Shown here: piece by piece, positions 18,158 through 43,199 of the stretch
Layout: every line of letters begins with the position of its first letter
Position numbering within the stretch: the first letter of the stretch is position 1
Assembly (NCBI GenBank): GCA_900316685.1
Contig: ONDS01000005.1
Coordinates: forward strand, 89,349 to 153,348
Direction: 5' to 3'
DNA length: 64,000 nucleotides
Source: an uncultured Prevotellaceae bacterium
GTDB lineage: Bacteria; Bacteroidota; Bacteroidia; Bacteroidales; Bacteroidaceae
Program-made: the position numbers and the translations under genes
The notes under the pieces: model-generated
The model's input: the letters and a program-made list of their open reading frames with translations, nothing else
Database searches by the model: none
Told to the model about the DNA's origin: nothing

Positions 18158-18203
18158 AGTTAAACGGATGACAAACTACTTCGGTTTTTTCCTGCTATCT
18201 TTG
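18158..18203 (+). promoter_or_regulatory. Phage-regulon promoter A (terminase)
   Basis: An 18-bp element AGTTAAACGGATGACAAA at 18158-18175 lies exactly 20 nt before TATCTTTG (18196-18203). The same element with the same spacing precedes the capsid gene (37453) and, with three mismatches, the putative scaffold gene (34162). GACAAA occupies the place of the usual -33 TTTG. Confidence 0.75.
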
Positions 18204-18238
18204 CGCCTGAAAACAAGATAACAGGATAATATCATACC

Positions 18239-20326
18239 ATGACCAACACAAATCTTCAGGAGATGCTCGACGAGAACGAGCGTCGAAACCGCCTTATCCG
18301 TGCTCTTTTCGACCCGCTCACAGGCGAGGGCAGCACGGGCGAACGGATGGTCGTCACACTGAACGATGTCTACGACCGGCCTACCTCCTTCCACCTCCCC
18401 CTGCCGATGATGAACGAACCGATGGCTCGCGAGGCTTCGCAGTGTGGCTCCATCCTCGCGGCGGCGCAACGGCTACACCTCGGCATCGTTTCGCTGGTGG
18501 ATGCGCGCGATGTGTTTCACCGACTGCGCTGCCGCTACGATTTCCCTTACTGGGCGGCAAGCCATGTGCGCATCAAACCCAAGCAGGGGGGCGACGATGT
18601 GCCCTTCGTGCTCAACCGACCGCAGCGGCGCTTGGTGGAGGCGTTCGAGGAGATGCGCCTCGCCGGACAGCCCATCCGCATCATCGTGCTCAAGGCACGG
18701 CAGTGGGGCGGCTCCACCGTCACGCAAATCTATATGGCGTGGCTCCAACTTATCCAGGCCACGGGCCTCAACTCGCTCATCGTGGGGCATGTGAAGACGG
18801 CGTCGGCTGAGGTCTGCGGTATGTTCGACAAACTGATGGAGGGCTATCCCGAGGCTATGCTCTATCCGCACGGACGGAAACCGCGCAAGGGGGCGAAGAA
18901 AATGACCGGCGACCGCAACACGCGCTTGCTCCGACATATTCCCGCTCGCAACTGTAAGATCAAGGTGGGCTCGGCAGAGACTCCCGACTCGGCGCGAGGT
19001 GGCGACTCGGCGTTGGTGCATTGCACCGAGGTGGCTTTCTGGCGCAAGACACAGAACAAACAACCCGAGGACATCATCCGCTCGGCTTGCTCGGGAGCAG
19101 GCTACCTGAGGGGCACGATGATCGTGTATGAATCGACGGCCAACGGCACGGGCAATTTCTTCCACCGCGAATACGAGGCGGCGAAGAAGGGCTGCTCGCA
19201 GTTCCGACCGCTGTTCGTGGCGTGGTGGCAGATAGAACAGTATGTGTTGCCCTTCGCCTCCGAGGAGGAGCGTGAACGCTTCGCCCAGTCGTTGCTAGAA
19301 GGCAGGGAGAGCGATACGACCCAGGAGAGGGCGCTCTCGGGCCGTCATCTCTGGCGCCTGTGGACGATGGGGGCCACGCTTGAGGCACTTCATTGGTATA
19401 CGCTCGAACGGCGCAAATACACCGACGAGGCTGACCTGGCTGCGGAGTTCCCTTCCGACGATATCGAGGCGTTCAAGCATTCGGGTGCCAACGTGTTCGA
19501 CAGTGCCGTGGTGGAACGCCTGCGTCCGGGGTGTCGTCAGCCGGCGATGAAGGGCGAGGTGCTGGCCGTGGCGGAGAAGGGGCGCGAGGCACTGCTCGAC
19601 CTCCATTTCGTAGATAATCCCTATGGTCTGCTGTGGGTGTGGCAACTGCCCGAAACGGCCGACGGTGAAAAGGTGACCGACCGGTATATGGTGGTGGTGG
19701 ATATCGGCGGACGGTCGGCGAAAAGTGATTGGTCCGTCATCGTGGTCTTCGACCGCCGACCGCTCCTCGACGATGGGTGCCCCGAGGTCTGCGCCCAATG
19801 GTATGGACATATCGACATGGACCGTCTGGCATGGAAGGCGGCGCAGATAGCGTGCTTCTACGACCAGGCACTGCTGGTTATTGAGTCGAACACCTTGGAG
19901 ACGCACGGACAACAGGCCTTCGGCTTCGAGGGCGGCGACCAGAGCACCTTCATCTTGCGGGAGATACGCGAGGAGTACGACAACCTGTACGCCCGCCAAC
20001 AGAGTGCTGACGAGATACGTCAACGGGCTCCCGTGCGTTATGGCTTCCATACCAATGTGCGCACCAAACCGGCCATCATCTCGACTCTCATCGCCGTAGT
20101 ACGTGATGGGTTGTATGTGGAGCGCGACGAACGTTGTCTCGACGAGTTACTCACCTACGAACGCCGGCCCAACGGGTCGTACGGTGCCATCGACGGTTGT
20201 CACGACGACTTGCTCATGACACGTGCCATCGCCCTCCATCTCTCTTATCATGAACTGCCCATGCCCTGCCTCATCAACCATAAACTGGCCCGTCCACACC
20301 GTCCACAGATAAGGTTTAGGGTTTAG
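18239..20326 (+). CDS. terL: Phage terminase large subunit
   Basis: The 695-aa protein shows the two-domain terminase layout. The N-terminal ATPase has a Walker A-like KARQWGGST (about residue 157), a Walker B-like segment ending in CTEVAFW, and the coupling motif YESTANG. The C-terminal RNase H-like nuclease has acidic clusters in VVVDIGGRSAKSDWS, VIESNT and DGCHDDLLM. It would cut and pump DNA into procapsids. An N-terminal extension of ~120 residues precedes the ATPase core. The frame is intact with all key residues visible. It is driven by promoter A and separated from the portal gene by a heptamer tract, whereas intact phages usually have tight spacing here. Confidence 0.85.
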   Translation: MTNTNLQEMLDENERRNRLIRALFDPLTGEGSTGERMVVTLNDVYDRPTSFHLPLPMMNEPMAREASQCGSILAAAQRLHLGIVSLVDARDVFHRLRCRYDFPYWAASHVRIKPKQGGDDVPFVLNRPQRRLVEAFEEMRLAGQPIRIIVLKARQWGGSTVTQIYMAWLQLIQATGLNSLIVGHVKTASAEVCGMFDKLMEGYPEAMLYPHGRKPRKGAKKMTGDRNTRLLRHIPARNCKIKVGSAETPDSARGGDSALVHCTEVAFWRKTQNKQPEDIIRSACSGAGYLRGTMIVYESTANGTGNFFHREYEAAKKGCSQFRPLFVAWWQIEQYVLPFASEEERERFAQSLLEGRESDTTQERALSGRHLWRLWTMGATLEALHWYTLERRKYTDEADLAAEFPSDDIEAFKHSGANVFDSAVVERLRPGCRQPAMKGEVLAVAEKGREALLDLHFVDNPYGLLWVWQLPETADGEKVTDRYMVVVDIGGRSAKSDWSVIVVFDRRPLLDDGCPEVCAQWYGHIDMDRLAWKAAQIACFYDQALLVIESNTLETHGQQAFGFEGGDQSTFILREIREEYDNLYARQQSADEIRQRAPVRYGFHTNVRTKPAIISTLIAVVRDGLYVERDERCLDELLTYERRPNGSYGAIDGCHDDLLMTRAIALHLSYHELPMPCLINHKLARPHRPQIRFRV

Positions 20327-20396
20327 GGTTTAGTGTTGAGTGTGTAGTGTTGAGTGTTAAGGGTTGAGTGTTTAGTGTTGAGTGTTGAGAGTTGAA
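20314..20396. repeat. Heptamer tract (GGGTTTA/AGTGTTG) between terminase and portal
   Basis: Starting inside the last codons of the terminase gene, the plus strand reads GGTTTAG units and then AGTGTTG/AGTGTGT/AGTGTTA heptamers up to about 20396. The C-terminal terminase residues RFRV are encoded by the tract's beginning. Confidence 0.8.
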
Positions 20397-20463
20397 TTGT
20401 CGCTTTGCGATGATGAATTTTAGAATTATAAAATTTCGTATTTCCTATTTCATATTTCATATC

Positions 20464-22011
20464 ATGTTTCCCATCCTTCAACAGGCGGCCCAATATTGGC
20501 TTGCCATGCAACAGTTCCGTAATCAACGTGATCGCTGCAAGCGTTACACCTTCGGCGACCAATGGCACGACCGTATCTGTGTTGACGGTCAGTGGATGAC
20601 GGAAGAAGAGTATATCCGTCAGCAAGGTAACGAACCGCTCAAAAACAATCTCATCCGGCGGCTCGTTCGCAATGTCGTAGGTCTTTATCGTTCCCAGCAA
20701 TCCGCTAATTATTCCGCCTCGTCTCCCCAATCCGCTATCATCTCCCCTTCCTTGGGAGGGGGGCGGGGGGAGGTTTCCATCTCCCCCTCCTTGGGAGGGG
20801 GCAGGGGGGAGGCCTTGCGTGGGGAGGCTTCCCTTCTTGAGGCGCGCGCCTTGGAAGAGTTCCTCATCTCGGGCTTGGCGGTGGTACGCAAGTCGTTCGG
20901 CAACCGCCATGCTGTCGTGGGATGCTGGACCGACTTGGTGTCGCCAGGCTCCTTCTTCATCGACAACCGTATGCGCGACCCTCGAGGGTGGGATGTGTCG
21001 TGCTTGGGCGAGCTCCACGACCTGACCTTCGCCGCTCTCTGCCGCCACTTCGCCAAGTCGCCCGATGACGTGAAGCGCTTGCAACGGATCTATGCGGCTC
21101 ACGACTACGACGACCGCATAGCCGATGCGGCGAGAGCTTTCGGACAGTATCAGCCGATGGCAGATTTCTTCCATCCGAAAGGCAACCTGTGCAGGGTGGT
21201 CGAGGTGTGGCGACTCGAACAACAAGAGCGTTACCTCTGCCACGACACGGCGGCAGGCGACCTCTTCTGGGTCGATGCTGACGATTACCCTTCGGTGGTG
21301 ACAGCTGAAAACGAGCGGCGCATCAACCTCGGTCGCCGTCATGGGAAAAAGAAACAGGAGGTGGCGCTCATCCAATCCCAATGGGACATCGGCGAGCAGT
21401 GGCATTATTATTTTCTCTCGCCTTTCGGCGATGTGCTCCAAGAGGGTGTGTCGCCGTATGCCGACGGCGGCCATCCCTATGTGTTCAAGGCTTACCCGTT
21501 CATCGACGGCGAGATACACTCGTTCGTGGCTGACCTTATCGACCAACAGCGTTACACCAACCGGCTCATCACGCTCTACGACTGGATCATGCGCTCCTCG
21601 GCCAAGGGCGTGCTCCTCGTGCCCGAAGAGTCGATACCCGATGGCTACTCATTGGCGGATTTCGCCGACGAATGGGCGCGTTTCAACGGGGTGATAGCCA
21701 TACGAACGAAAAACGGGGCGCAGATGCCGCAACAGGTGGCGATGAACGCCACCAATGTGGGCATAAAAGACTTGCTGCAGACGCAACTCAACTTCTTTGA
21801 AGATATCTCGGGCGTGGCGGGAGTGCTCCAGGGAAAGCGCGACAATAACTCCAACAATGCGTCGCTCTTCGCCTACCAAACGAACAACGCCACATTGTCA
21901 CTGCTTGATATCCTTGAGACGTTCCGCTCCTTCGTAGAGGAATCACACCTCAAGGACCAACAGCTCTACCGCCAGTTCGGCACCCATTTCTCCAACTCTA
22001 TATCCTTGTAA
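20464..22011 (+). CDS. Phage portal protein, probably 3'-truncated and repeat-interrupted
   Basis: ATG 20464 is preferred over the upstream in-frame ATG (20392), which lies in repeat-derived AT-rich sequence. The 515-aa protein has portal-like features: an RYTFGDQW start, PLKNNLIRRLVRNVVG, a central beta/alpha region, and the helical AATNVGIKDLLQTQLNFFEDISGVAGVLQGKRDNNSNN-like stem region near residues 430-475 (quoted only in part). Residues ~93-120 are an in-frame low-complexity insert (SPSLGGGRGE twice) encoded by a GC-rich intergenic-type repeat. The last ~12 residues are read from DNA antisense to the 3' end of the convergent esterase gene. The true portal C-terminus therefore seems lost. 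Function as a packaging ring is doubtful. Confidence 0.65.
   Translation: MFPILQQAAQYWLAMQQFRNQRDRCKRYTFGDQWHDRICVDGQWMTEEEYIRQQGNEPLKNNLIRRLVRNVVGLYRSQQSANYSASSPQSAIISPSLGGGRGEVSISPSLGGGRGEALRGEASLLEARALEEFLISGLAVVRKSFGNRHAVVGCWTDLVSPGSFFIDNRMRDPRGWDVSCLGELHDLTFAALCRHFAKSPDDVKRLQRIYAAHDYDDRIADAARAFGQYQPMADFFHPKGNLCRVVEVWRLEQQERYLCHDTAAGDLFWVDADDYPSVVTAENERRINLGRRHGKKKQEVALIQSQWDIGEQWHYYFLSPFGDVLQEGVSPYADGGHPYVFKAYPFIDGEIHSFVADLIDQQRYTNRLITLYDWIMRSSAKGVLLVPEESIPDGYSLADFADEWARFNGVIAIRTKNGAQMPQQVAMNATNVGIKDLLQTQLNFFEDISGVAGVLQGKRDNNSNNASLFAYQTNNATLSLLDILETFRSFVEESHLKDQQLYRQFGTHFSNSISL
20742..20812. repeat. Two copies of a 32-bp GC-rich repeat inside the portal gene
   Basis: CTCCCC[TC]TCCTTGGGAGGGG-type units occur at 20742-20773 and 20781-20812; a third copy is intergenic at 38952-38983. 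Each contains a CTCCC...GGGAGG hairpin. Both gene copies keep the reading frame, adding about 28 residues. Confidence 0.85.
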
Positions 22012-23228
22012 CTGTCGGGAGCGATGCGCACCTTGGTGTCGACACCGTCCTTGCCAAGGAGGAACCGGTCGAGATAGGCACCCAACTCGGGGAACTGCAC
22101 CTCGGGCAGTTGGCAGTGGCCATGTCCGGGCACGATGGAGTAGCCCACGCGGTCGTCGATGCCATACTGCTGCCACACCTTGATGGCGGCGTTCATCGAC
22201 ACATAAGCCGAGGGGTCGGCCAACCACACATAGTCGGGGTTGCCGAACATCAAGAGGGCGCGCGGGCAGATCATCGCCACCAACTCATGGTGGTCGTAGG
22301 GCAGATAGGCCACATCGTCCTCGGCGTATTGTTCACGCAGACTCTCCTTAAACCAGTGGTAGTCGGTGTTGTCCAGTCCTTCCACCTTCTCGGCATCGGG
22401 TTGGGTGTTCAGCCAACGTGAGTAGCGCCAGGCGGCACAACCGCCGCCACCGGGCTCTTGGGCGATGGTCAGGGCGATGCGCTCGTCGAAGGCACCACAG
22501 AACAGGGCCATCTTGCCGGCATACGAACAGCCGCTCACTCCGATATGGCGGGTGTCGATCTTCGTCACCTCGGGACCCAACTGCTCCAGTCCGTCGATGA
22601 GCCGGCTCAGTCCCCATGCCCATTCGCTATAGGCACCGTTGTCCACCAACTCGGGATAGAGACGGTCGAACTCGTAGTTGCCACGACCGGCGGGATGGCC
22701 GAACTGGCTGTAGTTGTTCACCTGCCGCTCTGAGAAAGCCATCGTGGCGATAGGTCGGTCGGCGACGGGTGGGAACATCGGTGGGAAGGTAATGCCGATG
22801 ATCAGGGGGTAGGGGGCCTCGCCCGTCTTGGGATAATGGATGAGTGAACTCAGGTGGAGCGTCTGGCCGTTCACCGTTACGTCTACCTTCAGCGTGTCGC
22901 CATCCATCCGCGCTTTTACGGCGGAAGGGTCGACGGCAGGCTTCCGTCCTATCTCGTAGTGTTGTATCTCCTGGGCTATCTCGCCGCGCCGCCTCCACCA
23001 GTCCTTGAAGTTGGTGGCTCGTCCGCTACCGTCCGACCATTCCAACGGGTCGGGCAGTGCCTCCACCTTCTTCCCCTCCGCTTTCGTGGGCAATACAGGG
23101 CTGACGGAGGCTCCGCTGTTCTCCACCTCGTAAACCAATGGTATCTCACTTTTCTTGGTCGTTTCTTGTGCTTGGGCACTGAGACCGAACACGGTCGTCA
23201 GTAGGATGATGCAGGTCTTTCTTATCAT
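21966..23228 (-). CDS. CE15 glucuronoyl esterase
   Basis: The 420-aa protein has a signal peptide (ends SAQAQ) and a full CE15 domain: LEWSDGSGRATNFKDW near residue 62, nucleophile motif GCSYAGK (Ser235), catalytic Glu258 in QEPGGGG, and His in VPGHGHCQLP (about residue 371). CE15 enzymes hydrolyse the ester between 4-O-methylglucuronic acid of xylan and lignin alcohols. It is followed upstream on the same strand by a much larger paralogue (23526-26855), and this copy may be the single-domain partner. Its last ~45 nt overlap the 3' end of the convergent portal gene. Its own promoter is TATCTTTG (minus strand, 23251-23258). Confidence 0.88.
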   Translation of the reverse strand: MIRKTCIILLTTVFGLSAQAQETTKKSEIPLVYEVENSGASVSPVLPTKAEGKKVEALPDPLEWSDGSGRATNFKDWWRRRGEIAQEIQHYEIGRKPAVDPSAVKARMDGDTLKVDVTVNGQTLHLSSLIHYPKTGEAPYPLIIGITFPPMFPPVADRPIATMAFSERQVNNYSQFGHPAGRGNYEFDRLYPELVDNGAYSEWAWGLSRLIDGLEQLGPEVTKIDTRHIGVSGCSYAGKMALFCGAFDERIALTIAQEPGGGGCAAWRYSRWLNTQPDAEKVEGLDNTDYHWFKESLREQYAEDDVAYLPYDHHELVAMICPRALLMFGNPDYVWLADPSAYVSMNAAIKVWQQYGIDDRVGYSIVPGHGHCQLPEVQFPELGAYLDRFLLGKDGVDTKVRIAPDSYKDIELEKWVPNWR

Positions 23229-23250
23229 AGGTTAAGCTGTTTGATTTCTG

Positions 23251-23258
23251 CAAAGATA
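23251..23258 (-). promoter_or_regulatory. Promoter -7 element of the single-domain CE15 gene
   Basis: Minus-strand TATCTTTG lies about 23 nt before the start codon at 23228. The gene is therefore probably transcribed separately from the upstream paralogue, from which a strong hairpin also separates it. Confidence 0.65.
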
Positions 23259-23368
23259 ATAATCTTTCTTGTATTCTATTTTCTCCTGTGTATTATTTTT
23301 TTCCTTGTTTGTATCACTCCTCACCTTTGGGCGGACATCAACTAAGCCCCTAAACGTGGAGGTAACCC

Positions 23369-23426
23369 CTCACCTCTCACCTCTCACCCCTCACCTCTCA
23401 CCCCTCACCTCTCACCCCTCACCCCT
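23369..23426. repeat. Heptamer tract (TCACCYC)
   Basis: Eight tandem TCACCTC/TCACCCC heptamers lie between the two CE15 genes. They are preceded by an AAGCCCCTAAACGTGG segment related to the elements at 47489 and 51874. Confidence 0.85.
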
Positions 23427-23435
23427 TATATATAC

Positions 23436-23466
23436 AAAGCGGGCGCGCCGCACGGCGCACCCGCTT
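23436..23466. terminator. Long GC-rich hairpin between the CE15 genes
   Basis: AAAGCGGG...CCCGCTTT arms form a nearly perfect stem of about 14 bp around a very short loop. It can act as a terminator for the minus-strand multidomain esterase gene ending at 23526. Confidence 0.65.
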
Positions 23467-23525
23467 TCTGCGAAAATAACGAGATAATAACTACATAATA
23501 ACTACTGTTGCGGTTAACATCCAAT

Positions 23526-26500
23526 CTATTTCATCATTATCTTTCTCGTCCTTACCTTGCCATTGCTGAGCGTCTCGCGAACGATGTTCACACCCTTCTG
23601 CAGATGGCTCTGCACCTGGCCCGACAAGTTGTATATCTGTACCTTCAGCACTTCGATGGCCGCTGTGCTCTCCATATCGGTTATCTCGGTGAGCGTGGGG
23701 TCGATCTCGCATATCTCACGGGTGATGCGGTTGAAGTGGATGGCAGGTGTTCCCTCACCGATGTATTGCAGGGCGAGGAAGGTGTAGTCATCGTATACAT
23801 CGAAGCTGTATTCATTGCCCGTGGCTTCCACGGCGGTGGTCTGTGCGTCTTCGCCTATCACGGTGATCATCTGGAAGTCGGCGGGGATGGGCGCATCGGT
23901 GTAGAAGGTGAATCGGTGGAAGGTGCCCATATCCACGGTGCCGCTGTAGGGACCCACATAGGCGTACTGCTGCGTGAAGTCGACGGTGCCCTCATATACG
24001 GGTTCCGAACCGAAGGGGACGATGGTGGCGGGGTTCCAGCCGTTGGCCACCAATCCACTCGTTGCCACGGGGCTATTGTCGGTCTTGTAGAGTGTCACGT
24101 CCTTGACCACGGTCTCCACTGTGTTGCCGGTCATATTCTGCAAGGCGAACTGCACCACCACGGGGTCGTCGCCCAGGTCGTCGGGATTGAACGCCCCTTC
24201 CATCACGGTCTGGTCGGCGGCGAAGGGGTAGTAATGACCGCCGTAGGCATCGGCCTGTGCTTGGTTGCGCACGAACATCTGGAGGAGTCCGTCGCTGCCG
24301 GGAGCTTGTTCCAATTCGATGCGGTAGCGCGGATATTCATTGATGTCGAAGGCCTCGCCCCACAGTTTCACGTCGCCCCAATTGCCGGGGATGCTTACAG
24401 TGGCGGGCAGTCCGTTCGGGCTGGTCTCATGACCCTCGATCTCCGCTCCGTAGTCGACGAGCACCTGCAGGTCTTCGCTCGACGGGGTGAAGTTGGTCAG
24501 ATAGACGTCGCGTGTGGCGGAGAGTATCTCGATGGGGTCGATGGCGCTGCTGCTATAACGCTGCACGGCGAGGTACCAGTAGCTCTGTTCGAGGGTGATC
24601 TTGCATTCGTTGCCGTTGATCTCGATGGCGGGGTAGGTCTCGCCCAGGTTCTCGCCATACTCATCCTTGTAGCCGAGTTTCCACTGCAGTCCTTCGGGTA
24701 TGGGCTGGGCGCATCTCACGGTAATCACGTGCTTGGTGCCCTCGGTCACGTCAGCTCCCCAGGCCTTGCCGCCCACTTCGCCCCACTGACCGCGGAAATT
24801 CACGGTGCCGCTGTAGATATTGCCGTCGGCGGCGGCCTCGCCGGTCACGGTGCTCGACCAGTTGCCTACCAGAGGTAGCTGTTGCTCGGTGCCAGCCTCC
24901 GGACCCTCATACACCACCGGGTCGGCTCCGAATTCCTCGGGCTCGCGCTGTCCCCACCAGCCAATCCACCAGTCGAGGTTGATATTGCTGTAGCTGCTCG
25001 GGGCGATGCGCACCTCGGTGTCTACATCGTCTTTGCCTAAGAGGTACTTGTCGATGAAGGCTTCCACCTCGGGATATTGCACCTCCGGCAACTGGCAATG
25101 GCCATGGCCGGGCACGATGGAATAGCCCACACGGTCCTCGATGCCGAACTGTTCCCACACTTTCATGGCACCATTCATCGATACATAGCCCGAGGGATCG
25201 GCCAACCACGTGTAGTCGGGATTGCCCAACATCAGCAGGGCGCGCGGACAGACCATGGCCGCCAACTCATGATGGTCGTGAGGCAGGTAGCTCACGTTCT
25301 TGCCATTGTAGGTATCGCGCAGGCTGTTCATAAACCAGTTGTAGTCGGTGTTGTCCAGTCCTTCCACCGACTCGGCGTCGGGCTGGGCGTTCATCCATCG
25401 CGAGTAACGCCAGGCGGCAGCACCACCTCCTCCGGGTTCCTGGGCGATGGTCAGTGCCACACGCTCGTCGAAGGCACCGCAGAAGAGTGCCATCTTGCCG
25501 GCATACGAACAACCGGTCACACCGATGTGCGCCATGTCGATCTTGGTCACTTCGGGACCTAACTGCTGCAGTCCGTCCAACAGTCGGCTCAATCCCCAGG
25601 CCCACTCGCTGTAGGCTCCGTTGTTCACCAACTCGGGATACAGACGGTCGAACTCATAATTGCCCCTGCCGGGAGCACTGCCCATCTGCGAGTAACTGTT
25701 TACCTGACTTTCCGAGAAGGTCATCGTGGCGATGGGGCGTGAGGAGTAGACGGCGGAGGGCAGTGAGATGCCACTCGTGCCGATCATCAGGGCGTAGGGT
25801 GCGGTGCCCGTGCTGGGGTAGTTGATGGTGGCGCTCAGGTGCAGCGTCTCGCCGTTCACCGTCACGTCGACATTCAGAGTGTTGCCGTCCATCGACGCAC
25901 TGATGGCGGAGGGGTCCACCTCAGGTTTCGTACCTATCTCGTAATGCTGTATCTCGCGTGCTATCTCGCCGCGGCGCAGCGACCAGTCGCTGAAGTCGGT
26001 CACACGCCCGCTGCCGTCAGACCATTCCAGAGGGTCGGGCAGTGGGTCTACCTTCTTTGCCTCATCCTTCGAGGGCAGCACGGGGTTGGCGGCTGCTCCG
26101 GTGTTCTCTACATTGTAGACGAGGGGGATGTCGCCCACCACCTTCGTCTTCACCACCACGTTGTACGAGGCACTGCCCGGGGCATATTCCTCGTTGCCGG
26201 CGAAGGTGGCGGTCACGGTGCCGTTGCCTTCACCCTCACCCAGAGTGGCCACACCAGTCGTGTTGTTCACCGTCAGCAGTCCTTCCGGATTGGAAGTGGC
26301 CGTATAGGTCACGGGCAGCCCATGGGGGTTGTTGAGCACGGGGGCCGTGAAGGGCTCGCCGGGCTGCAGGCGTACGCTCGCGGGTGTGAACGACAGTTCG
26401 GGTTTGAGCCGTTCTCCTTCTTTCACGCGCTCCACGCTGAGCACATGGATGGTCACCGACTCCGATTTGGTCCATTGTAGCGAGAGGAAGGTGTAGGTCT

Positions 26501-29114: not shown

Positions 29115-29115
29115 G

Positions 29116-31112: not shown

Positions 31113-31120
31113 TTATAAAT

Positions 31121-34161: not shown

Positions 34162-34207
34162 AGTTCAATCGATGACAAATCCCTGCGCCGGAAAAATTGT
34201 ACTTTTG
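34162..34207 (+). promoter_or_regulatory. Phage-regulon promoter C (putative scaffold)
   Basis: AGTTCAATCGATGACAAA at 34162-34179, then exactly 20 nt, then TACTTTTG at 34200-34207. Compared with copies A and B, 15 of 18 element bases agree and the spacing is identical. It also sets the start of the downstream gene at 34230. Confidence 0.7.
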
Positions 34208-34918: not shown

Positions 34919-34949
34919 TTTGTTCTTCCCTCGCATTGCACTATCTTTG
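34919..34949 (+). promoter_or_regulatory. Promoter of the TPR membrane regulator
   Basis: TTTG at 34919-34922, 19 nt spacer, TATCTTTG at 34942-34949. It rules out the in-frame ATG at 34936 and supports 34972. Confidence 0.75.
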
Positions 34950-34971
34950 CAGTGAAAAACGAACCAGTAGC

Positions 34972-36393
34972 ATGCGTCGTCTATTACTTCATATCATCTA
35001 CCTGTCGCTCCTCCTGCCATGTGTCTGTTTCATGGCTTGTAGTGGAGTGTCGTCGACTTCGCCACAAGCCGAGGCGGAGCAATGCCTCGACAGCGCCGTC
35101 TACTTCATCGACAGGACCGACTATACGCGCGCCATGCTACAACTCAAACGGGCGGAAAACCTCCTCCCGCAACTCTCCGACGATAAACAGAAATACCAGA
35201 TTTGTCAGTATATAGGGTGGATCAACGAACATAGCGGAGCCTTCTCCCTTGCCCTCGACTATCAGGAGAAGGCACTGCGGTATGCCGAGAAAACAAACCG
35301 TCCCGAACTGGTGGTCGATGTGCTCATCAATCAGGCCAACACGCTCTACAACATGCAACTCAACGACTCGGCGTGGCGTGTCAACCTCAGGGCTGCGGCT
35401 CATTATGCCGATGCCGACGACAGCCAACGGTCGTGCATCATGAAGAACATCGCCTATTACGAGTTTCTCAATGATTCGCTGCCCGAGGCGGAGAGACATG
35501 CCTATCGCGCAGCCCTCCTCGCACAGGACCCCTCGGCCATGGGCAACGCCCTCTCGCTCCTCGGCATGGTCTATATCCGTCAGGGACACGACGAGAAGGC
35601 GGAACTGCTCATGACCACCATACCCGAGGACGGCGGAGCAACGCTCCAGCGCAACCGTTTCCTGCTCAAGAGCGAATACTTAGAGCGCAAGGGCGACTAC
35701 AAAGGGGCGCTTGATGCTTATAAGCGATGGAAGACCATCGACGACTCCATCGCCGTCAGCCAGCAGAATGTGGAGATGGTGGCGTTGCAAAACCGCTACG
35801 ACCGTGAGTTGCTGGCTGCCGAGAAGGAACGTCAACGGTTGTGGTTTGTTGTGGCCCTGGTGGCTCTGTTGGCCCTCGTGCTTCTCATCACATGGTGGTT
35901 CGACCGCCGACAGCGCACGCTTACTCGACGTTTCCACGACTCGCTCCATGAGGTGCGCTCACTGCTCGGACAGAAAGAGCAGACCATCAGCCAGCTCAAA
36001 CAGACCATTGACAGCCGTGTCGACGAGCTGCAACACATGCAGCATCAGCTCTCGCAGTTCGCCTCGTCGGCACAGCGGCGCGAGGTGGAACGCCTCTTCA
36101 CCTCCATCGCCGATACCAAGGCAGGAGTCGACGTGCTCCATGCCTTAGTGTCGGGACAGAATATCAGTCAGTATGGTAAACGAGAGGAGACGGCGCTCAT
36201 GCAGGTGCTGCCCGCCATCAACCCCGATTTGGCGGAGGAACTGGCCAAGGCCAACGCTCCGCTCACTCCCAAGGAGACGTTCTACTGCGTGATGGAGCAT
36301 TACGGCATCGACGATACCCGCAAAGCCCTCGCCTTTTGTTGCTCCAACCAGGCATTGCGCAGTACCAAGAGCCGTCTCAACAAGAAATTCTGA
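34972..36393 (+). CDS. TPR lipoprotein/membrane protein with C-terminal HTH-like region
   Basis: The 473-aa protein begins with a signal/lipobox (MRRLLLHIIYLSLLLPCVCFMAC). A periplasmic TPR array (about 30-270), one membrane helix (about 291-311, LWFVVALVALLALVLLITWWF in short form), and a cytoplasmic coiled coil (about 325-380) follow. The C-terminal region LTPKETFYCVMEHYG...SNQALRSTKSRLNKKF is laid out like a degenerate LuxR-type HTH. This architecture (TPR-TM-coiled coil-HTH) is common for membrane-bound regulators in Bacteroidota. It lies between the putative scaffold and recombinase genes but has an ordinary host-type promoter, so it is probably not part of the phage regulon. Confidence 0.72.
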   Translation: MRRLLLHIIYLSLLLPCVCFMACSGVSSTSPQAEAEQCLDSAVYFIDRTDYTRAMLQLKRAENLLPQLSDDKQKYQICQYIGWINEHSGAFSLALDYQEKALRYAEKTNRPELVVDVLINQANTLYNMQLNDSAWRVNLRAAAHYADADDSQRSCIMKNIAYYEFLNDSLPEAERHAYRAALLAQDPSAMGNALSLLGMVYIRQGHDEKAELLMTTIPEDGGATLQRNRFLLKSEYLERKGDYKGALDAYKRWKTIDDSIAVSQQNVEMVALQNRYDRELLAAEKERQRLWFVVALVALLALVLLITWWFDRRQRTLTRRFHDSLHEVRSLLGQKEQTISQLKQTIDSRVDELQHMQHQLSQFASSAQRREVERLFTSIADTKAGVDVLHALVSGQNISQYGKREETALMQVLPAINPDLAEELAKANAPLTPKETFYCVMEHYGIDDTRKALAFCCSNQALRSTKSRLNKKF

Positions 36394-36401: not shown

Positions 36402-36458
36402 TTCAACACTCAACCCTCAACACTTAACCCTAAACACTCAACACTCAACCCTCAACTT
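36402..36458. repeat. Heptamer tract (CTCAACA/CTAAACA)
   Basis: Eight CTCAACA, CTCAACC, CTTAACC and CTAAACA heptamers lie between the convergent TPR-regulator and recombinase genes. The tract reaches the last codons of the recombinase gene. Confidence 0.85.
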
Positions 36459-37366
36459 ATCCTCGCTATCACCTTCTTGTTGAGTGTGAATAGGCGGCGT
36501 TCCGCATGGTCGCGTATGTAAATACGGGTCACGCGCGTGTCACTGTGTCCCAGTCCCTTGCTGATCACGTTCAGGTCGCCCTTCTGTTCAAAGGCCAGGG
36601 TGGCCCAGGAGTGACGGGCGCAGTACGACGACAGTTGGCTCCGAATGCCTGCCAACTGGCGTAGTTGGTGTAATGCCGTGTTGTAGTTGGACAACCGCTT
36701 CCTGTAGCCGAACTGTCTGCCTTTATAATATAGGATGGGGAAGAGGAACGGGCTGCTTGGCTCATGCCAACGGTCGATGATGTCGCGCATACACGGTTCG
36801 ATGCGCACTTCTACGGGATTGTCGGTCTTATGGCGATAATAAACTATGTATTTGTCGTCTGTCTTGTCGGTGCTCAGGTAGGCGAGGTCAACGAAAGGCA
36901 TGCCGCAGGCATACACGCTGAAGAGAAACAGGTCGCGGGCAAAGGCCAACTGACTGCCCTCGGGCAGGTCGAGGTTATGCAGCCGCATGATCTCCCTCAC
37001 GCTCAGCGACCGTTTCTTCGTGGCCTTCACTCCCGTGAACACATGGCGGAAGGGGTTGTGCATCTCTAATTCCCAACGCTCGCATATCTTATTGAACAAC
37101 GACCGCAACGAACGGATGTAACAACTGCTCGTGTTGTCGCACACACCTTGGGCGTGCAGCCATCGCTCGTAGTCTTTCATCAGGCCTGGCGTGAGATCTT
37201 CGAGGGCGGGTTCGCCGCCGAAATAACGGTTGAGTGAATGCAAGGCCATGAGGTAGTTGCTGGCCGTGCTTTGTGAATACTGGTGGATAAAAGGTTCCGC
37301 AGCCTGGCTGAACCCCATACTTGTCATCCTGCGACATCTCTGCCGCGATGTAGGTTTGTGTTTCAT
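36452..37366 (-). CDS. Tyrosine recombinase (Bacteroidota type) with altered Arg I
   Basis: The 304-aa protein has an N-terminal SAM-like core-binding domain (about 15-105) and a catalytic domain. Visible residues are K180 (YYRHKTDN), R251-H252 (ARHSWAT), H274 (GLGHSD) and nucleophile Y283 (RIYIRD). The first catalytic Arg expected in the (R/S)GM-F-D segment is Cys154 (ACGMPFVDLAYL), one transition away from Arg (TGC for CGC). The box II His is Tyr, common in this group. IntDOT also lacks canonical Arg I, so activity cannot be excluded. It may integrate or invert DNA; no att site or invertible repeat was identified. It is divergent from the capsid gene. Confidence 0.85.
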   Translation of the reverse strand: MKHKPTSRQRCRRMTSMGFSQAAEPFIHQYSQSTASNYLMALHSLNRYFGGEPALEDLTPGLMKDYERWLHAQGVCDNTSSCYIRSLRSLFNKICERWELEMHNPFRHVFTGVKATKKRSLSVREIMRLHNLDLPEGSQLAFARDLFLFSVYACGMPFVDLAYLSTDKTDDKYIVYYRHKTDNPVEVRIEPCMRDIIDRWHEPSSPFLFPILYYKGRQFGYRKRLSNYNTALHQLRQLAGIRSQLSSYCARHSWATLAFEQKGDLNVISKGLGHSDTRVTRIYIRDHAERRLFTLNKKVIARIS

Positions 37367-37452: not shown

Positions 37453-37498
37453 AGTTAAACGGATGACAAAGTTCTTCCGGCAAAAGCCATTATCTTTG
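37453..37498 (+). promoter_or_regulatory. Phage-regulon promoter B (capsid)
   Basis: AGTTAAACGGATGACAAA at 37453-37470 is identical to copy A. TATCTTTG at 37491-37498 again follows after exactly 20 nt. The spacer differs between copies, so selection seems to act on the 18-bp element and the spacing. Confidence 0.8.
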
Positions 37499-37552: not shown

Positions 37553-38902
37553 ATGTCTACAGAAAACAGATTGTACCAAGGGGGCGCAGAGAAGTACAAG
37601 GGAACCACCGAACCCGACCCCGAACAACCCAAGTTCACCGACAACCCCGACGGCATACTCACCGAAACGGTGGGGCGTGAACTCGCCGATCCGGAGATGT
37701 ATCAAAAGGACATCGACGAACGCATCACCAAGATACGCCCCATGGCCACTCCCGTCGACCAAATCTCGCGATTCGCCACGCTACAGCAGGCTTCATCCTT
37801 CGAGGTGAAATACTACAGCGTGGGCACACGACCCGTCAAGACCACACTCACCGAGGCAGTACAGGCCAGCCCCTCCGCCACCAGCGTAGCACTCACCGTG
37901 GCCGATCCCGACATGTTCACCCTCGACGACACCATACGTGTGGTAGATGTCAAGGCAGTGACCGACTACCGAGGTACGGCTTACGACCAAACCGATCCCT
38001 CCACACCCGACCTCTGTCTCTGTGTCTGCGGCAAGACATCGCAGGGCCAGCCCATCGTCTATGCCGTCAATGGCAATGTGGTGAACCGGCAGAGCATCGG
38101 CGTGCCCGACATCCCTGTCAACACCGTGCTCATACGCATGGGCAAGAGTTGCGGCGAACTGGATGTGCAGACCGGACGATTCAACAACCTGCCCACGTCG
38201 GAACTGCAGTACTGTCAGAACTTCATGGCACAGATCGAACAGTCCACGCTCGACAAGATAGCCAACAAGGAGGTGAACTGGGGATTCTCCGACCTCGAGG
38301 AAGACAGCATCTACGACATGCGACTGGCCATGGAGAACTCGTTCCTCTTCGGCGATATGAACATGGTCAAGCACACCACCAAGGACGGCATGGCGCAGTG
38401 GTTTACCAAAGGCATCTGGTGGCAGGCGGGCAAGGACATCGAGGTGGGAACAACCGTCGACGGGGTGACCACCATCACCGACAATGACCTTGTGGATATA
38501 TCGCGCGACCTGTTCGTGGGCACGGGCATAGGCAACAAACGGAAGGTGCTGCTCTGCGGTTCCGATTTCCTCGCCGCTCTCTCGAAGATCGATTCGGATA
38601 AGTTCCGTCTCAAGGACACCGTCGAGGTGTGGAACCTGAAGTTCAAAAGCTGGGAGACGGACTTCGGCGAAATTCTCGCCATGCACGACGAACTGTTCGA
38701 TATGAACGGCATGGCCGACTGTGCCTTCGCCCTCGATCCGGAGTTCCTCACCAAGAAGACCCACCTGAGTTGGAGCCGTAATATCCTCGACCTCAAGAAG
38801 GCGGGGGTGCGCAACACCGATGCAGTGGTCATTCAGGAAATCTCCTGTCTCTACCTGCGCTACGCCAAGGCCCACGCTCGCCTGCGTCTCGCTGCGGAAT
38901 AA
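37553..38902 (+). CDS. SU10-like (DUF5309-type) phage major capsid protein
   Basis: The 449-aa protein resembles the SU10 major capsid group with an HK97-type fold. It has an N-terminal arm (1-60), the P-domain helix region RPMATPVDQISRFA, a long beta insert (about 100-190), the helix ELQYCQNFMAQIEQSTLDKI, and the late strand/helix alternation ending FLTKKTHLSWSRNILDLKKAGV. Length matches the family. It is the most abundant structural protein expected for a phage head, driven by promoter B. Downstream genes follow on the same strand without separate recognisable promoters. The intact frame suggests it is still under selection. Confidence 0.75.
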   Translation: MSTENRLYQGGAEKYKGTTEPDPEQPKFTDNPDGILTETVGRELADPEMYQKDIDERITKIRPMATPVDQISRFATLQQASSFEVKYYSVGTRPVKTTLTEAVQASPSATSVALTVADPDMFTLDDTIRVVDVKAVTDYRGTAYDQTDPSTPDLCLCVCGKTSQGQPIVYAVNGNVVNRQSIGVPDIPVNTVLIRMGKSCGELDVQTGRFNNLPTSELQYCQNFMAQIEQSTLDKIANKEVNWGFSDLEEDSIYDMRLAMENSFLFGDMNMVKHTTKDGMAQWFTKGIWWQAGKDIEVGTTVDGVTTITDNDLVDISRDLFVGTGIGNKRKVLLCGSDFLAALSKIDSDKFRLKDTVEVWNLKFKSWETDFGEILAMHDELFDMNGMADCAFALDPEFLTKKTHLSWSRNILDLKKAGVRNTDAVVIQEISCLYLRYAKAHARLRLAAE

Positions 38903-38998: not shown

Positions 38999-39184
38999 AT
39001 GAAAACATACGAAGCAAAATCCCATATCAGCATCAATGTCATGTTGCCGGGGGGCATGCGACACATCGCCTTCATACCGCGCACCTTAGGCACCAGTTAT
39101 TACACCACCGACGATCCCGTGCTCCAACAAGCTCTTGAAGCCCATCCCCGCTACGGCACACTCTTCATTTCTTCCGACACATGA
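38999..39184 (+). CDS. Small phage-associated protein
   Basis: The 61-aa protein (MKTYEAKSHISINVMLPGG...) is predicted to be a beta-strand-rich small domain with a C-terminal helix (DDPVLQQALEAHPRYG). Small proteins of this form sit just after the capsid gene in several Bacteroidales prophage-like clusters as I recall, and may be head decoration or completion proteins. No catalytic features. It lies 96 nt after the capsid gene, behind a GC-rich repeat. Confidence 0.55.
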   Translation: MKTYEAKSHISINVMLPGGMRHIAFIPRTLGTSYYTTDDPVLQQALEAHPRYGTLFISSDT

Positions 39185-39261: not shown

Positions 39262-39885
39262 ATGCTTCTCTCCACCATCCTCCGCGATGTCCGTATCGCT
39301 CTCAACATGAACCACTCTTGTCAGGCGCTCATCGACGAACATGACCTCGACACGCTCACTCTCGACGAGAGGATTACCAGTCTCGTCGAACCGATGGCCT
39401 GCGAGGTGCTGATGGCGGCTCCGCTTCTCGACCTTGGCGAGGGATCACCCATCTCCGATACTGTTCATTGGGATCATCGGCGTGGTCATGGTGCAGGCAC
39501 CATTATCCTGCCGCCCGACTTCCTCCGTCTCATCACCTTCCGCATGTCGGGGTGGGGGAGGGCCGCTACCATCATCCAAACCGACGACCCACGGGCCCTG
39601 TGGCAGCACTGTCCCTTTCCGGGTGTCCATGGCAATCCCCATAGGCCCGTGGCTTTCGTAGAACCGTCGTCCTTCGGGCCACGCCTTCATTTCTTCGCCT
39701 CTTATGATGGACACCATGCCCATATCGTCGAGGCGCGTTACATCCCCCGGCCTCGACTGCGCCCTCTCATCTCACCTGCCACCAACACCTCTACCTCACA
39801 ACTCGACCTTCCCTTCCCTTCGCGACTCTATCACCCGCTCATCCAATCTCTCGCGGAAAAAATCAATCAATGCAAACACGAATAA
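39262..39885 (+). CDS. Probable phage head-completion/connector protein
   Basis: The 207-aa protein starts with a helix (LLSTILRDVRIALNMN) and has a helical-then-strand pattern. In the middle IILPPDFLRLITFRMSGWGR is a hallmark seen in Bacteroidales phage connector or neck-like proteins. The C-terminus is SRLYHPLIQSLAEKI. Position two genes after the capsid fits an adaptor that seals the portal. No enzymatic domain. Assignment rests mostly on position and length, so it could also be another head protein. Confidence 0.5.
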   Translation: MLLSTILRDVRIALNMNHSCQALIDEHDLDTLTLDERITSLVEPMACEVLMAAPLLDLGEGSPISDTVHWDHRRGHGAGTIILPPDFLRLITFRMSGWGRAATIIQTDDPRALWQHCPFPGVHGNPHRPVAFVEPSSFGPRLHFFASYDGHHAHIVEARYIPRPRLRPLISPATNTSTSQLDLPFPSRLYHPLIQSLAEKINQCKHE

Positions 39886-40013: not shown

Positions 40014-42242
40014 ATGACTTCACTTCTAATCCATAAAGATTTGCATGTGGGTGGCCAACTCGTCGCCCATCACCATGTGCGCGTCATCGGCGACGTGCAG
40101 ATAGAGGGAGCCCTGTCCTGCTCGCAGGTCAACAACCTCGATTGTGGCTTCTTCCCCTCCGAAGAAGCTCTCTTGTCAGCCCAAGCCCTGCCTGCCGTGG
40201 GCATGCATGCCACCGTGCTCCGGCAAAACGGCGACCAGACGGCATCGGCCATCATATATGGCTGCGAACAGGCGGGACAATGGCGGCAGATAGCTTCGGA
40301 GGTGCCCGTCACCATACACTGGCAACGTAACGAACTGCCCGACCCCTCCTATAGCATATTGCTCTCGCATTTCGTAGTGCTGACTTCGCTCGACGACCTG
40401 CCTCGTCATCCGCTCGACCCCATGACGGGATTTGTGGTTGAGGGCACGGTATACGTCTTCGTGGGCAAGGGCGGCGACACCGACCATGGACGTTACCTGG
40501 CCTGCGGTCCACTACACGGCGTTCAGGGCGAACAGGGTGTGCAGGGGGAGCCAGGGCCACAGGGACCGCGCGGCGAGCAGGGGCCGCAGGGAGAAAAAGG
40601 TAACCCCGGCACATATATCGACCCCGCCAACACCGAGATTTTCCAACAGATGGACGACCTCGACGGCAAGACGACGACACAGCGGGCGGCGATGATAGCC
40701 AGCGGCAATGTGGTGGCCGATCTCACCAACACCATCGACGAGGTGGCGGCCAATGTCGATGAGACACTCCATGGCATGGCTGTGCCCGTGGCTGTCAAGC
40801 AGGGCTACGGTGTATGGAACGGCTCTGCCAGTCCCGCCAATATCGGCTCATGGCACACCTCGGTGGGCAATGCCACCTATGTGTTCAACGTGGAGGCGTT
40901 CGCAGGACAGAAGGTGAGGGTACATTATTATAATCTCTCGCCCAACTACTTCCGCTTCTCCTTTGTGGCCGATTGGCAGGCAATCATGACCGACACGCCG
41001 CGCACCGACAACGGATGGGACCAGAACTGTATCGCCACCCAGACGGCGCGTGAAAGCACGGCAGGCAGGGTGCACAACATGTTGCTCACCGTGCCCGACG
41101 GTGCCCGCTTCCTGATGCTCGGTTCCTACCACGGCAATGCGGCGACCATGGAGATACCTTGCTACGACACCATGCTCGACGATCTCGACCACCGTGTTGC
41201 CCTACTGGAGTCGGAGGCGGGGGAGGCCACGACCATACAACGGCTCAATCCCAAGACACTGTTCCTACCGAAGGTGAGAAACATGGTCATGCCGTATTAC
41301 TCCACCAGTCTGACACCACATACGCAGCCAGCTCCGCTCTTGCTGGCTCATTTCTCCGATGTGCATGGCAACGGCACGCAGATGGCTCGTATGATGGAGT
41401 GGCTCGACGACTATGCCGACCACGTGGACGATATCCTGCATACGGGCGATGCCGTGGAGAAGGATGTCCATAGTGGCATGGATTTCTGGAACGGGGTAAG
41501 TGGTTCGGAACGTATCCTCAATATCGTGGGCAACCACGATACGCACGATGGCAACCAGTTCGGCGGACTGACGCAGAAAGAGGTGTACGATTATCTTTTC
41601 GCTCCCTATATCGCCAACTGGGGGGTGACGCAGCCGGAGGGAGCGGCAGCCATGGGGCATTGCTATTGGTATAAGGACTATCCTGCCAAGAAGGTCAGAC
41701 TCATCGCCCTCGACTGCATGAACCATACGGTGGCGCAGTTGGAGTGGCTCAGGACTACGCTGGTGGGCGCTGCCGACCGTGGGCTCTCCGTGGCTATCGC
41801 CTACCACTGCGGACCGTCGGCGCATTACCGGCGCGTGGACTGTTGCTTCATGGGGTTTGCCATCACCAATACCATGCACGGGGCTTATCCCTGGGAGGCG
41901 GCGGTGTCGATGGTCGATGAGTTCAAGAGGGGCTCGCTTGAGGGGCAGACGGCACAGGGTGATTTCATCTGCTGGCTCGTGGGCCACTCGCACAAGGATT
42001 TCGTGTTCTGGGTGAACGACAGCCAATTGGTGGTGGGCATCGACTGCATGCAGTATACTGCCAACAACCGCGACCATGTGCTCTCACGCGAGGATAAGTC
42101 GCAGGACCTCTTCAACCTCGTGGCGTTCGACACCTACCGCCGTACCGTCAAGCTTCTGCGCGTGGGCAACGATGTCGACTATCAGCTCCGCCACATCTTG
42201 CAGTGCTGTATCCGCTACACCGATGGCATCGTTATGTATTAA
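40014..42242 (+). CDS. Phage fibre-like protein: collagen-like segment and metallophosphoesterase domain
   Basis: The 742-aa protein has an N-terminal beta-rich region (1-165) with an ADVQIEGAL-like repetitive start. A Gly-X-Y collagen-like segment (about 167-198; GVQGEQGVQGEP and so on) follows, then coiled-coil-like helices and a beta domain (about 250-400). A calcineurin-type metallophosphoesterase occupies about 440-720. Its metal motifs are SDVHGN, HTGDAVE, GNHD, a lone His region (YHCGPS), and GHSHKD. The Gly-X-Y segment suggests trimerisation, as in tail fibres. The enzyme could cleave phosphodiesters in surface polysaccharide during adsorption; that is inference. It is the largest protein of the phage-like set. 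Confidence 0.75.
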   Translation: MTSLLIHKDLHVGGQLVAHHHVRVIGDVQIEGALSCSQVNNLDCGFFPSEEALLSAQALPAVGMHATVLRQNGDQTASAIIYGCEQAGQWRQIASEVPVTIHWQRNELPDPSYSILLSHFVVLTSLDDLPRHPLDPMTGFVVEGTVYVFVGKGGDTDHGRYLACGPLHGVQGEQGVQGEPGPQGPRGEQGPQGEKGNPGTYIDPANTEIFQQMDDLDGKTTTQRAAMIASGNVVADLTNTIDEVAANVDETLHGMAVPVAVKQGYGVWNGSASPANIGSWHTSVGNATYVFNVEAFAGQKVRVHYYNLSPNYFRFSFVADWQAIMTDTPRTDNGWDQNCIATQTARESTAGRVHNMLLTVPDGARFLMLGSYHGNAATMEIPCYDTMLDDLDHRVALLESEAGEATTIQRLNPKTLFLPKVRNMVMPYYSTSLTPHTQPAPLLLAHFSDVHGNGTQMARMMEWLDDYADHVDDILHTGDAVEKDVHSGMDFWNGVSGSERILNIVGNHDTHDGNQFGGLTQKEVYDYLFAPYIANWGVTQPEGAAAMGHCYWYKDYPAKKVRLIALDCMNHTVAQLEWLRTTLVGAADRGLSVAIAYHCGPSAHYRRVDCCFMGFAITNTMHGAYPWEAAVSMVDEFKRGSLEGQTAQGDFICWLVGHSHKDFVFWVNDSQLVVGIDCMQYTANNRDHVLSREDKSQDLFNLVAFDTYRRTVKLLRVGNDVDYQLRHILQCCIRYTDGIVMY

Positions 42243-42379: not shown

Positions 42380-42592
42380 ATGTCTCTTCACACAAAAGAA
42401 AAAATCCAATATGGCTGTGCCATTGCCATGATAAGCAGTGGCATCATACTCTCTTTTCTCTCCTTCTTCCTCAACCACTACGACATAGCCGAGAGTGTGC
42501 TCTGGTATCTGGCGCAGGCCCTCACCTTCGCCGGCGGTGTCTTCGGCATCAACATCTACTTCAAGGCCAAATCCAAATCACGTAAACAGTAG
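42380..42592 (+). CDS. Holin-like small membrane protein
   Basis: The 70-aa protein has two hydrophobic helices (about 12-31 and 39-57) and a basic C-terminus (KAKSKSRKQ). This fits a class II holin-like layout. It directly precedes the DUF5675 lysin, the usual holin-lysin order. It would form lesions that release the lysin. Sequence alone cannot exclude an unrelated small membrane protein. Confidence 0.6.
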   Translation: MSLHTKEKIQYGCAIAMISSGIILSFLSFFLNHYDIAESVLWYLAQALTFAGGVFGINIYFKAKSKSRKQ

Positions 42593-42624
42593 AACTGGAA
42601 GTCTTGCCCTCTTTTGGTGATTCT

Positions 42625-42720
42625 CATCACTCGTCACTCGTCACTCGTCACTCATCACTCATCACTCGTCACTCGTCACTCGTCACTCATCACTCATCAC
42701 TCATCACTCAACACTCAACA
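42625..42720. repeat. Heptamer tract (TCACTCG/TCACTCA)
   Basis: About twelve TCACTCG and TCACTCA heptamers, then CTCAACA units, fill the gap between the holin-like and lysin genes. Confidence 0.9.
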
Positions 42721-42722
42721 TT

Positions 42723-43199
42723 ATGAAATCTCTCACGCTTCACCGCTCATACCGTCCTGCCGATGGAACCTATTCCATCGGCCACCTCTACGATGCCGAC
42801 GGTAATTATATCTGCGACACCATAGAAGACACTGACCGTGGACTCACCCAGGACATGCCTCTCGACACCATCAGACGTATCAAGGTAAAGAGCCGCACCG
42901 CCATACCACGGGGCACATATCGTATCTCCCTCGATGTGGTAAGTCCTAAGTTCTCTCTCAAACCTTATTACCGACAGTTCTGCGCGGGAAGGGTGCCTCG
43001 GTTGCTCAACGTGCCTGGTTTCGACGGCATACTCATACATCGCGGTATGTCGGAACGCTCCTCGGCAGGTTGCATCATTGTCGGGATGAACACCGTCCGC
43101 GGCAGGGTCACCGCTTCACAGTCATGTTTCGAACGTCTCTACCATCTCCTCGAAAGTTACCGCCGCCAGGGGCACACCGTCTACATCGAGATCAAGTGA
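42723..43199 (+). CDS. DUF5675-family phage lysin-like protein
   Basis: The 158-aa protein has the DUF5675 layout: an N-terminal beta region with GTYSIGHLY and CDTIEDTDRGL, then IPRGTY, and the signature IHRGMSERSSAGCIIVG with His106 and Cys117. This is reminiscent of L,D-transpeptidase-type active sites. Members are common at the end of Bacteroidales prophage clusters and are thought to act on the cell wall; the reaction is not established here. It is the last gene of the phage-like set. A clear host-type promoter follows for the next gene. Confidence 0.8.
   Translation: MKSLTLHRSYRPADGTYSIGHLYDADGNYICDTIEDTDRGLTQDMPLDTIRRIKVKSRTAIPRGTYRISLDVVSPKFSLKPYYRQFCAGRVPRLLNVPGFDGILIHRGMSERSSAGCIIVGMNTVRGRVTASQSCFERLYHLLESYRRQGHTVYIEIK

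Follow-up and report, generated by a model that had tools for sequence, protein, structure and literature searches.

Podovirus-type phage genes scattered over the chromosomes of two Prevotella groups and the promoter-like element that many of them share

Two groups of Prevotella have genes of a podovirus-type phage scattered between the ordinary genes of their chromosomes. The set was traced from a 64,000-nucleotide stretch of DNA of an uncultured Prevotellaceae bacterium (the window; G000:C17:89349-153348, from genome G000 of 3.15 Mb in 42 contigs, 89.8% complete) and comprises packaging, head, connector-position, fibre and lysis-type genes, a repressor and one further phage gene. We consider it probable that these genes form a host-kept, co-regulated viriform resembling a gene transfer agent (GTA), derived from a podovirus-type phage of Bacteroidales and dispersed nearly gene by gene.

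Dispersal of the phage genes and their contiguous relatives

The large terminase (TerL) gene was found in 37 of 398 genomes of the same genus, and 23 of these, picked by identity ahead of tree building, were assigned to clade D: G000, G009, G019, G036, G049, G063, G070, G086, G176, G182, G200, G228, G236, G238, G280, G311, G319, G325, G355, G363, G369, G376 and G393. TerL and the portal gene were found in all 23 and the major capsid protein (MCP) gene in 22 of 23; as the G363 contig stops 3.4 kb past the portal, its MCP gene may be unassembled.

On the D contigs mapped, the phage genes lie tens to hundreds of kb apart with host genes between them, and no locus had the make-up of an intact prophage. 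On G063:C67, TerL lies at 43.6 kb, the portal at 101 kb and MCP at 221 kb, a TerL-MCP span of about 175 kb against 64-68 kb for whole related phages, and in G000 the genes are split over two contigs, C17 and C18. TerL adjoins the portal in group A (G000, G019, G182, G363, G228, G369 and G311), whereas the two are separated in most of group B. In 11 group B species the portal occupies a single slot with gene f8 and GrpE-like and LysM genes, flanked on the other side in five of the 11 by fumarase and an M16 peptidase. The group B MCP gene often lies 3' of a gene for a leucine-rich repeat protein of about 1900 aa, and TerL stands beside clpB or one gene away from it in G063, G200 and G376. An assembly artefact was rejected, given the same slots in many separate metagenome-assembled genomes.

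Named phages with this capsid amounted to three of 50,697 records, the Bacteroides phages BKO1-TP3 (PQ571269), BS-TP4 and BF1-TP2; in the two phages opened, MCP sits within a row of small structural-type genes with the portal and giant proteins nearby. A search of IMG/VR by MCP gave 86 relatives, and the best 80 of the 86 were 59-71% identical, with no D-like MCP among them. Contigs of named genomes held 57 MCP loci. Thirty of these were 74-93% identical and all titled Prevotella or Prevotellaceae, several with rumen or omasum in the title, and the other 27, at 72% or less, came from various Bacteroidales and some oddly labelled metagenome-assembled genomes. Relatives carrying the genes contiguously, which the first-pass annotation of the window had named as a sign of simple prophage decay, do exist (G143, G298, BKO1-TP3); in the trees of MCP, TerL and portal, however, they branch outside clade D. 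TerL motifs are common to D and the phages in an alignment from which G379 and G114 were excluded.

The contiguous prophages in G143 and G298 carry a protein of 5782 or 6169 aa; that of G143 (5782 aa, L110:668-15667) combines DarB-type/Strawberry-notch helicase, ddrB-ParB, InPase and methylase domains. Polyvalent proteins of this domain type are thought to be injected along with phage DNA. A conserved piece of the giant protein was found in 0 of 23 D genomes against three of five prophage-type genomes, one being the query's own, and no integrase was common to D and its nearest relatives. That the relatives are phages and that the window holds a recombinase would suit a phage satellite, or a mobile phage using a helper. 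We rejected this reading and give it scarcely any credence: the system has its own TerL, portal and MCP, the recombinase is not common to G019 or G182, and D-type MCP is absent from the 80 best IMG/VR loci. The 90%-complete G000 yielded one MCP and one TerL match with no second copy of either, and hence no resident helper of the family was seen.

The shared promoter-like element and the genes behind it

Comparison of upstream regions gave AAAATGACA followed at a fixed distance by TAnnTTTG, i.e. an element ATGACA-N22-TAnnTTTG of 36 nt. A dyad search for a repressor operator gave nothing clear, and its 9-mer part led to the element. With spacers of 18-23 nt allowed, 34 of the 36 matches on 1.12 Mb of D contigs had exactly 22 nt. 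Judged from projected gene starts, 32 of the 34 lie 5' of the scaffold-position gene (SCAF; 9), MCP (9), the portal (7), TerL (6) or f26-TAIL32516 (1), a share that is partly a matter of contig choice because the D contigs were fetched for holding phage genes; one of the remaining two lies 22 bp 5' of a SCAF frame. The unbiased count is that of whole genomes, with 116 matches in the 23 D genomes (5.0 each; backwards control 4) and at least one in 19 of them, compared with 29 matches in 33 other genomes (0.9 each; control 12). At the named loci there were no matches in the 27 non-D loci (0.46 Mb) versus 15 in 14 of the 30 D-like ones. The exact element was absent from 85 phage loci (1.28 Mb) and from 228 kb of prophage-type contigs, and two matches appeared when the D contigs were shuffled by mononucleotide. 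With a weight matrix built on 24 training hits, seven non-D sites exceeded 13 bits (best 19.8), and the best D site reached 55. Weaker GATACC-type forms lie 5' of TerL in G311 and G369.

The TAnnTTTG half is the published -7 box of the Bacteroides sigma factor sigma-ABfr, with TTTG near -33 (PMC7366714). The ATGACA half is the unusual part of the element, and candidates for what reads the whole element are the S24-type repressor, a cassette of FHA and PP2C genes in the window and the AraC-type gene at 43374.

We fetched 72 of the 73 further element loci listed in D genomes and could assign the first gene in 41, the other 31 being doubtful or without assignment. BLAST clustering gave 33 replication-type first genes, with Lin1244_N, DUF7833, HTH_36 and DUF6291 as Pfam matches of representatives; subfamily profiles back 28 of the 33 (15 of them had served as seeds of these profiles), similarity by BLAST to the Lin1244_N protein of G143 backs one more, giving 29 supported, and four are doubtful. 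The other first genes are six spanin-like, three scaffold-position, one amidase, one small-head-like and one f26-TAIL32516 gene. The spanin-like genes show an N-terminal lipobox by eye and a C-terminal hydrophobic segment, one of the six being assigned by features only. The Lin1244_N and amidase genes both have counterparts by homology in the prophage of G143, and in G000 an extra element (G000:C6:19822-19857) lies 5' of a Lin1244_N gene.

These replication-type genes (among loci L460-L531) are dispersed in the D genomes, in several copies in some (e.g. G200, G319), and in nine fetched loci they are accompanied by a recurring second gene, about 235 aa long, the one tested giving no Pfam match. 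In 12 of the 33 replication-type genes a 9-mer recurs at least six times in 250 bp with one mismatch allowed, compared with 14 of 200 background genes. Nine of the 12 have a TGTGAC-type repeat, the others A-rich runs or other words. In L460, L463, L465-L467 and L513, 8-13 TGTGAC-type copies within 250 bp lie inside the replication-type frames and encode VT-rich stretches. Such repeats may be iterons, which we offer as a lead only. A bolder version, which we put forward as a rather unlikely extension, would have the entire phage broken up almost into single genes that form one regulon across the chromosome. On induction, the replication-type genes behind the element could start replication at numerous phage-type origins and amplify host DNA at many sites for packaging, giving a GTA with run-off replication from multiple origins.

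The first-pass annotation had described the phage genes as lacking a repressor, which does not hold for the genome as a whole. An S24-type repressor with at least 55% identity was found in 20 of the 23 D genomes searched (a weak 31% match alone in G036; none in G311 or G393), and the phrog_32516 protein (TAIL32516), a further phage gene, in 20 of 23 (none in G036, G311 or G393); in G000 both are at G000:C18:155580-160429. The presumed Ser/Lys dyad of the repressor, assigned by eye, is invariant in 20 of 20 aligned sequences. The "virion-type" label of TAIL32516 comes from weak PHROG matches of its G143 homologue (E 0.0015-0.0048).

Descent and selection

Clade D forms a single clade in the trees of MCP (20 rows, SH-aLRT 98), TerL (23 rows, 100) and portal (21 rows, 100). 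For the MCP and TerL trees, 29 of the 137 related loci were chosen, together with genome sequences no shorter than 350 aa (MCP) or 500 aa (TerL); G176 and G355 were excluded from the portal set, and G200 and G280 from the TAIL32516 set. ClpB served as host marker, being unusable in G238, G280 and G311, and the ClpB of G375 was dropped. In the ClpB trees the 14 group B rows, every one of them D, cluster together (100/100), and group A, in the 62-row tree, comprises six D rows with G243 (100/100), a genome without a TerL match that sits on a long branch. The pairings G009-G086, G393-G376 and G049-G200-G063 agree between ClpB and the phage genes. Mantel correlations with ClpB were 0.85 for MCP (n=18), 0.91 for TerL (20), 0.81 for the portal (18), 0.66 for the repressor (18) and 0.87 for TAIL32516 (17), and for each of the five genes, in B only as well, 0 of 2000 permutations reached the observed value. 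Within groups A and B, the genes show mostly vertical inheritance and host co-diversification, with ClpB alone as the host tree.

The ratio of non-synonymous to synonymous substitution (dN/dS), calculated by the Nei-Gojobori method on 13 close pairs, was 0.042-0.069 for MCP (7 pairs), 0.087-0.174 for TerL (13), 0.079-0.181 for the portal (13), 0.037-0.088 for the repressor (10) and 0.206-0.306 for TAIL32516 (8), with 0.020-0.055 for the ClpB control (11). Inside each host group the genes are under purifying selection, the ratio being low for MCP, TerL, portal and repressor and higher for TAIL32516. The GC content of the D genes (0.56-0.59) is close to that of ClpB (0.57).

The first-pass annotation had left a choice between a decayed prophage pulled apart by insertions and a domesticated particle. 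Decay, in which the head genes would be relics, can point to broken members, namely an MCP of 268 aa in G063 (G063:C67:221164-222060) and of 190 aa in G311 and portal genes that are split (G355) or disrupted (G176), and to insertions in the window that are unseen in G019 (esterases, recombinase). Against it, TerL measures 694-743 aa in 23 of 23 genomes, dN/dS is far below 1, the slots are the same with host-like branching within groups, and a clade-specific promoter-like element lies 5' of the dispersed genes. Neither relaxed selection nor general frame damage was found, and simple decay, which we hold to be very improbable, was rejected on selection, shared descent and the shared element; the split itself is common to the species and co-diverges with the hosts in the two groups. 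Of the second alternative, a domesticated GTA-like particle, the domestication is supported, with gene transfer as a proposed function.

From the window genes to a proposed particle

At its two ends the window (Table 1) consists of ordinary chromosome, with genes for a CHAT protein, SpoU methylase, P-type ATPase, glycosidases, DUF1846, A2M, ClpB, an S8 peptidase and ExoVII. By Pfam- and PHROG-type profile matches, the head, packaging and lysis genes are present with open frames in the order that the first-pass annotation had given, and the interrupting genes that it had listed (two GCE_fung esterases, FHA and PP2C genes, a TPR protein, a tyrosine recombinase) were recovered. As an account of insertion this holds in part: in the near relative G019 the esterases are absent between the portal and the FHA cassette, and in G019 and G182 the recombinase is absent between the TPR gene and MCP, so that both were probably inserted later, while the FHA-SEL1-like-FHA-PP2C genes are kept in G019 and, on the opposite strand, in G182. 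The FHA gene was found in 16 of 23 D genomes and in 0 of 8 others searched, a weak contrast because five of the eight were picked as prophage carriers.

Table 1. Features of the window, with positions counted from its first nucleotide
Feature	Position	Strand	Evidence or remark
Shared promoter-like element ATGACA-N22-TATCTTTG	18168..18203	+	35 bp 5' of TerL
Large terminase (TerL)	18239..20326	+	phrog_2 1.5e-20; T4 gp17 3ezk E 0.001
Portal	20464..22011	+	P22_portal 2.3e-17; phrog_156 2.7e-44
Two glucuronyl esterase genes (GCE_fung)	21966..26855	-	profile matches
FHA - SEL1-like - FHA - PP2C cassette	28401..32581	+	gene order same in G019
phrog_27246 phage protein	33551..33964	-	4.8e-24
Shared promoter-like element	34172..34207	+	22 bp 5' of scaffold-position ATG
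Scaffold-position protein (SCAF, phrog_22323)	34230..34859, frame from 34197	+	7.8e-23
TPR protein	34936..36393	+	adjoins MCP in G019 and G182 too
Tyrosine recombinase	36452..37366	-	profile match
Shared promoter-like element	37463..37498	+	54 bp 5' of MCP
Major capsid protein (MCP), SU10-like	37553..38902	+	SU10_MCP 6.5e-33; phrog_26635 1.7e-210
Small head-region protein (phrog_23743), short form	38999..39184	+	
phrog_22135 protein, connector position	39262..39885	+	1.1e-28
Fibre: collagen repeats + Metallophos_2 domain	40014..42242	+	
Holin-like phrog_8278 protein	42380..42592	+	homologues in G009, G086, G049 60-65% identical
DUF5675 lysin-like protein	42723..43199	+	5.8e-20
AraC-type regulator, 3' of cluster	43374..44489	+	G019 homologue 44% identical

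The portal frame is open from a TTG at 20392, with an ATG at 20464, and a run of GTTGAGTGTT-like repeats lies in the TerL-portal intergenic space (20326-20390). The MCP matched the solved capsid 9in6 (1.7e-5). The phrog_22323 gene stands immediately 5' of MCP in the prophages of G143, G053 and G298, and from this position its product is probably the scaffold. Homologues of phrog_27246 and phrog_22135 occur in 85 and 119 of 137 related loci, respectively. Fibre identity between G000 and G019 is 39%. Near the start of the window, a CHAT-TPR protein of 1348 aa (1027-5073) is a possible defence gene.

In the GTA-like viriform that we favour, the S24-type repressor would keep the regulon off. On induction, a factor would read the ATGACA element and the TerL, portal, scaffold and capsid genes would fire jointly from their separate sites; heads would assemble, the terminase would fill them with host chromosome, and the lysis genes would release DNA-carrying particles. 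Two other uses of a domesticated set were considered. A killing particle of PBSX type, with or without DNA, would kill relatives and transfer no genes; it has a precedent in PBSX, which by the description in PMC12946183 does not inject the DNA that it packages, and the fibre and TAIL32516 are the fastest evolving of the compared genes (39% fibre identity; dN/dS 0.21-0.31), as might be the case for a weapon whose targets change. We think it unlikely, as the conserved core consists of TerL, portal and MCP, which a tail-only weapon could do without, and annotation of the loci turned up no contractile tail gene. A capsid retained inside the cell without release, as a compartment for storage, stress or defence, would fit MCP being the most conserved of the compared structural genes and the giant-protein fragment not being found in D. 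TerL, portal, fibre and lysis-type genes are nevertheless kept, and the spanin-like and amidase genes have the same element, which makes this use quite improbable.

Several observations weigh against the GTA-like viriform, among them the damaged MCP and portal genes described above and the small, connector and fibre genes not found downstream of MCP in G063, an apparent loss of the system within clade D. Host-DNA packaging and delivery are proposed from the gene content. Neither a small terminase nor a tail hub was recognised, searches of solved structures with TAIL32516 and connector-position profiles gave no convincing relative, and no Ala-Gly cleavage pair was seen by eye in the aligned repressors. 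The exact element was absent from four of the 23 D genomes (G228, G311, G325, G369), and 21 of the 33 other genomes had at least one match. Low dN/dS by itself would also fit an active phage. Alphaproteobacterial GTAs carry a signature of amino-acid cheapness; here the amino-acid cost was lower for TerL, higher for MCP and not significantly different for the portal, and ClpB itself differs.

The history of the set is a further difficulty. A first ClpB tree of 42 rows gave preference to non-D rows as neighbours of G000, and 20 non-D rows were therefore added; the resulting 62-row tree separates A from B with non-D hosts between them. D was joined in 0% of bootstrap trees, although the AU (approximately unbiased) test does not reject joining (p 0.088). 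This outcome slightly lowered our confidence both in the GTA-like viriform and in its multi-origin extension. With A and B not joined, the history may be one domestication followed by losses, transfer between the groups, or two domestications. dS scatters up to about 4-fold around ClpB, so that some exchange is likely: for G019-G363 it was 0.73 (portal), 0.82 (repressor) and 0.99 (TAIL32516) against 0.23 for ClpB, and for G049-G200 0.13 (repressor) against 0.40. Two domestications of related phages, or transfer of the domesticated set between A and B, would account for this scatter, for the separation by ClpB and for TerL adjoining the portal in A and not in most of B. Against this, the D sequences group as a single clade in three gene trees, and A and B have the same element, spacing and target genes. 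Two domestications or transfer is a real possibility, a little short of an even chance, and it would alter the history of the system and not its function, being compatible with a GTA-like viriform.

Particle proteins from caudoviricete ancestors, an attribute of GTAs as defined in PMC9662315, are found here in the TerL, portal and MCP families and their phage homologues; GTAs encoded at multiple loci are described in PMC11841831. The RcGTA-type agents are likewise phage-derived, spread over multiple loci and vertically inherited with packaging and structural genes kept (PMC9662315, PMC11841831), whereas D has an ancestor with a P22-type portal and SU10-like MCP, belongs to another phylum, shows near gene-by-gene dispersal in group B, has one shared promoter-like element and is known at the gene level. 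BaGTA of Bartonella also combines kept particle genes with phage-derived replication genes at separate sites and has a phage-derived origin and run-off replication region (PMC3610622); in D several genomes have multiple copies of the replication-type genes, which lie behind the same element as the structural genes, and amplification would be their suggested role. FpGTA of Faecalibacterium is a podovirus-type GTA-like element of gut anaerobes (PMC12946183), but FpGTA I, from Bacillota, forms a single operon of 10.5 kb, unlike the dispersed set in Bacteroidota. BKO1-TP3, BS-TP4 and BF1-TP2 share a homologous MCP (BKO1-TP3 and BF1-TP2 also TerL and portal homologues), and the G143 and G298 prophages homologous scaffold-position, small and connector-position proteins. 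These phages and prophages differ in having phage genomes of 64-68 kb, contiguous structural genes and giant proteins, with no exact element in the loci scanned. By title or opening of the abstract, no GTA of this kind in Prevotella, Bacteroidetes or Bacteroidota was found in the open-licence PMC literature.

If the proposed reading is right, the 36-nt element would offer a sequence signature for finding scattered systems without synteny. If the multi-origin version were true, it would be the first such GTA known in Bacteroidota within the open-licence PMC literature searched. If the GTA-like viriform is real, Bacteroidota and a common rumen genus would join the few lineages with such viriforms, from another phage ancestor, and these Prevotella would have a built-in route of gene exchange. 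The reason for GTA retention would then become testable, as the clade offers both an apparent loss (G063) and related hosts without the system.

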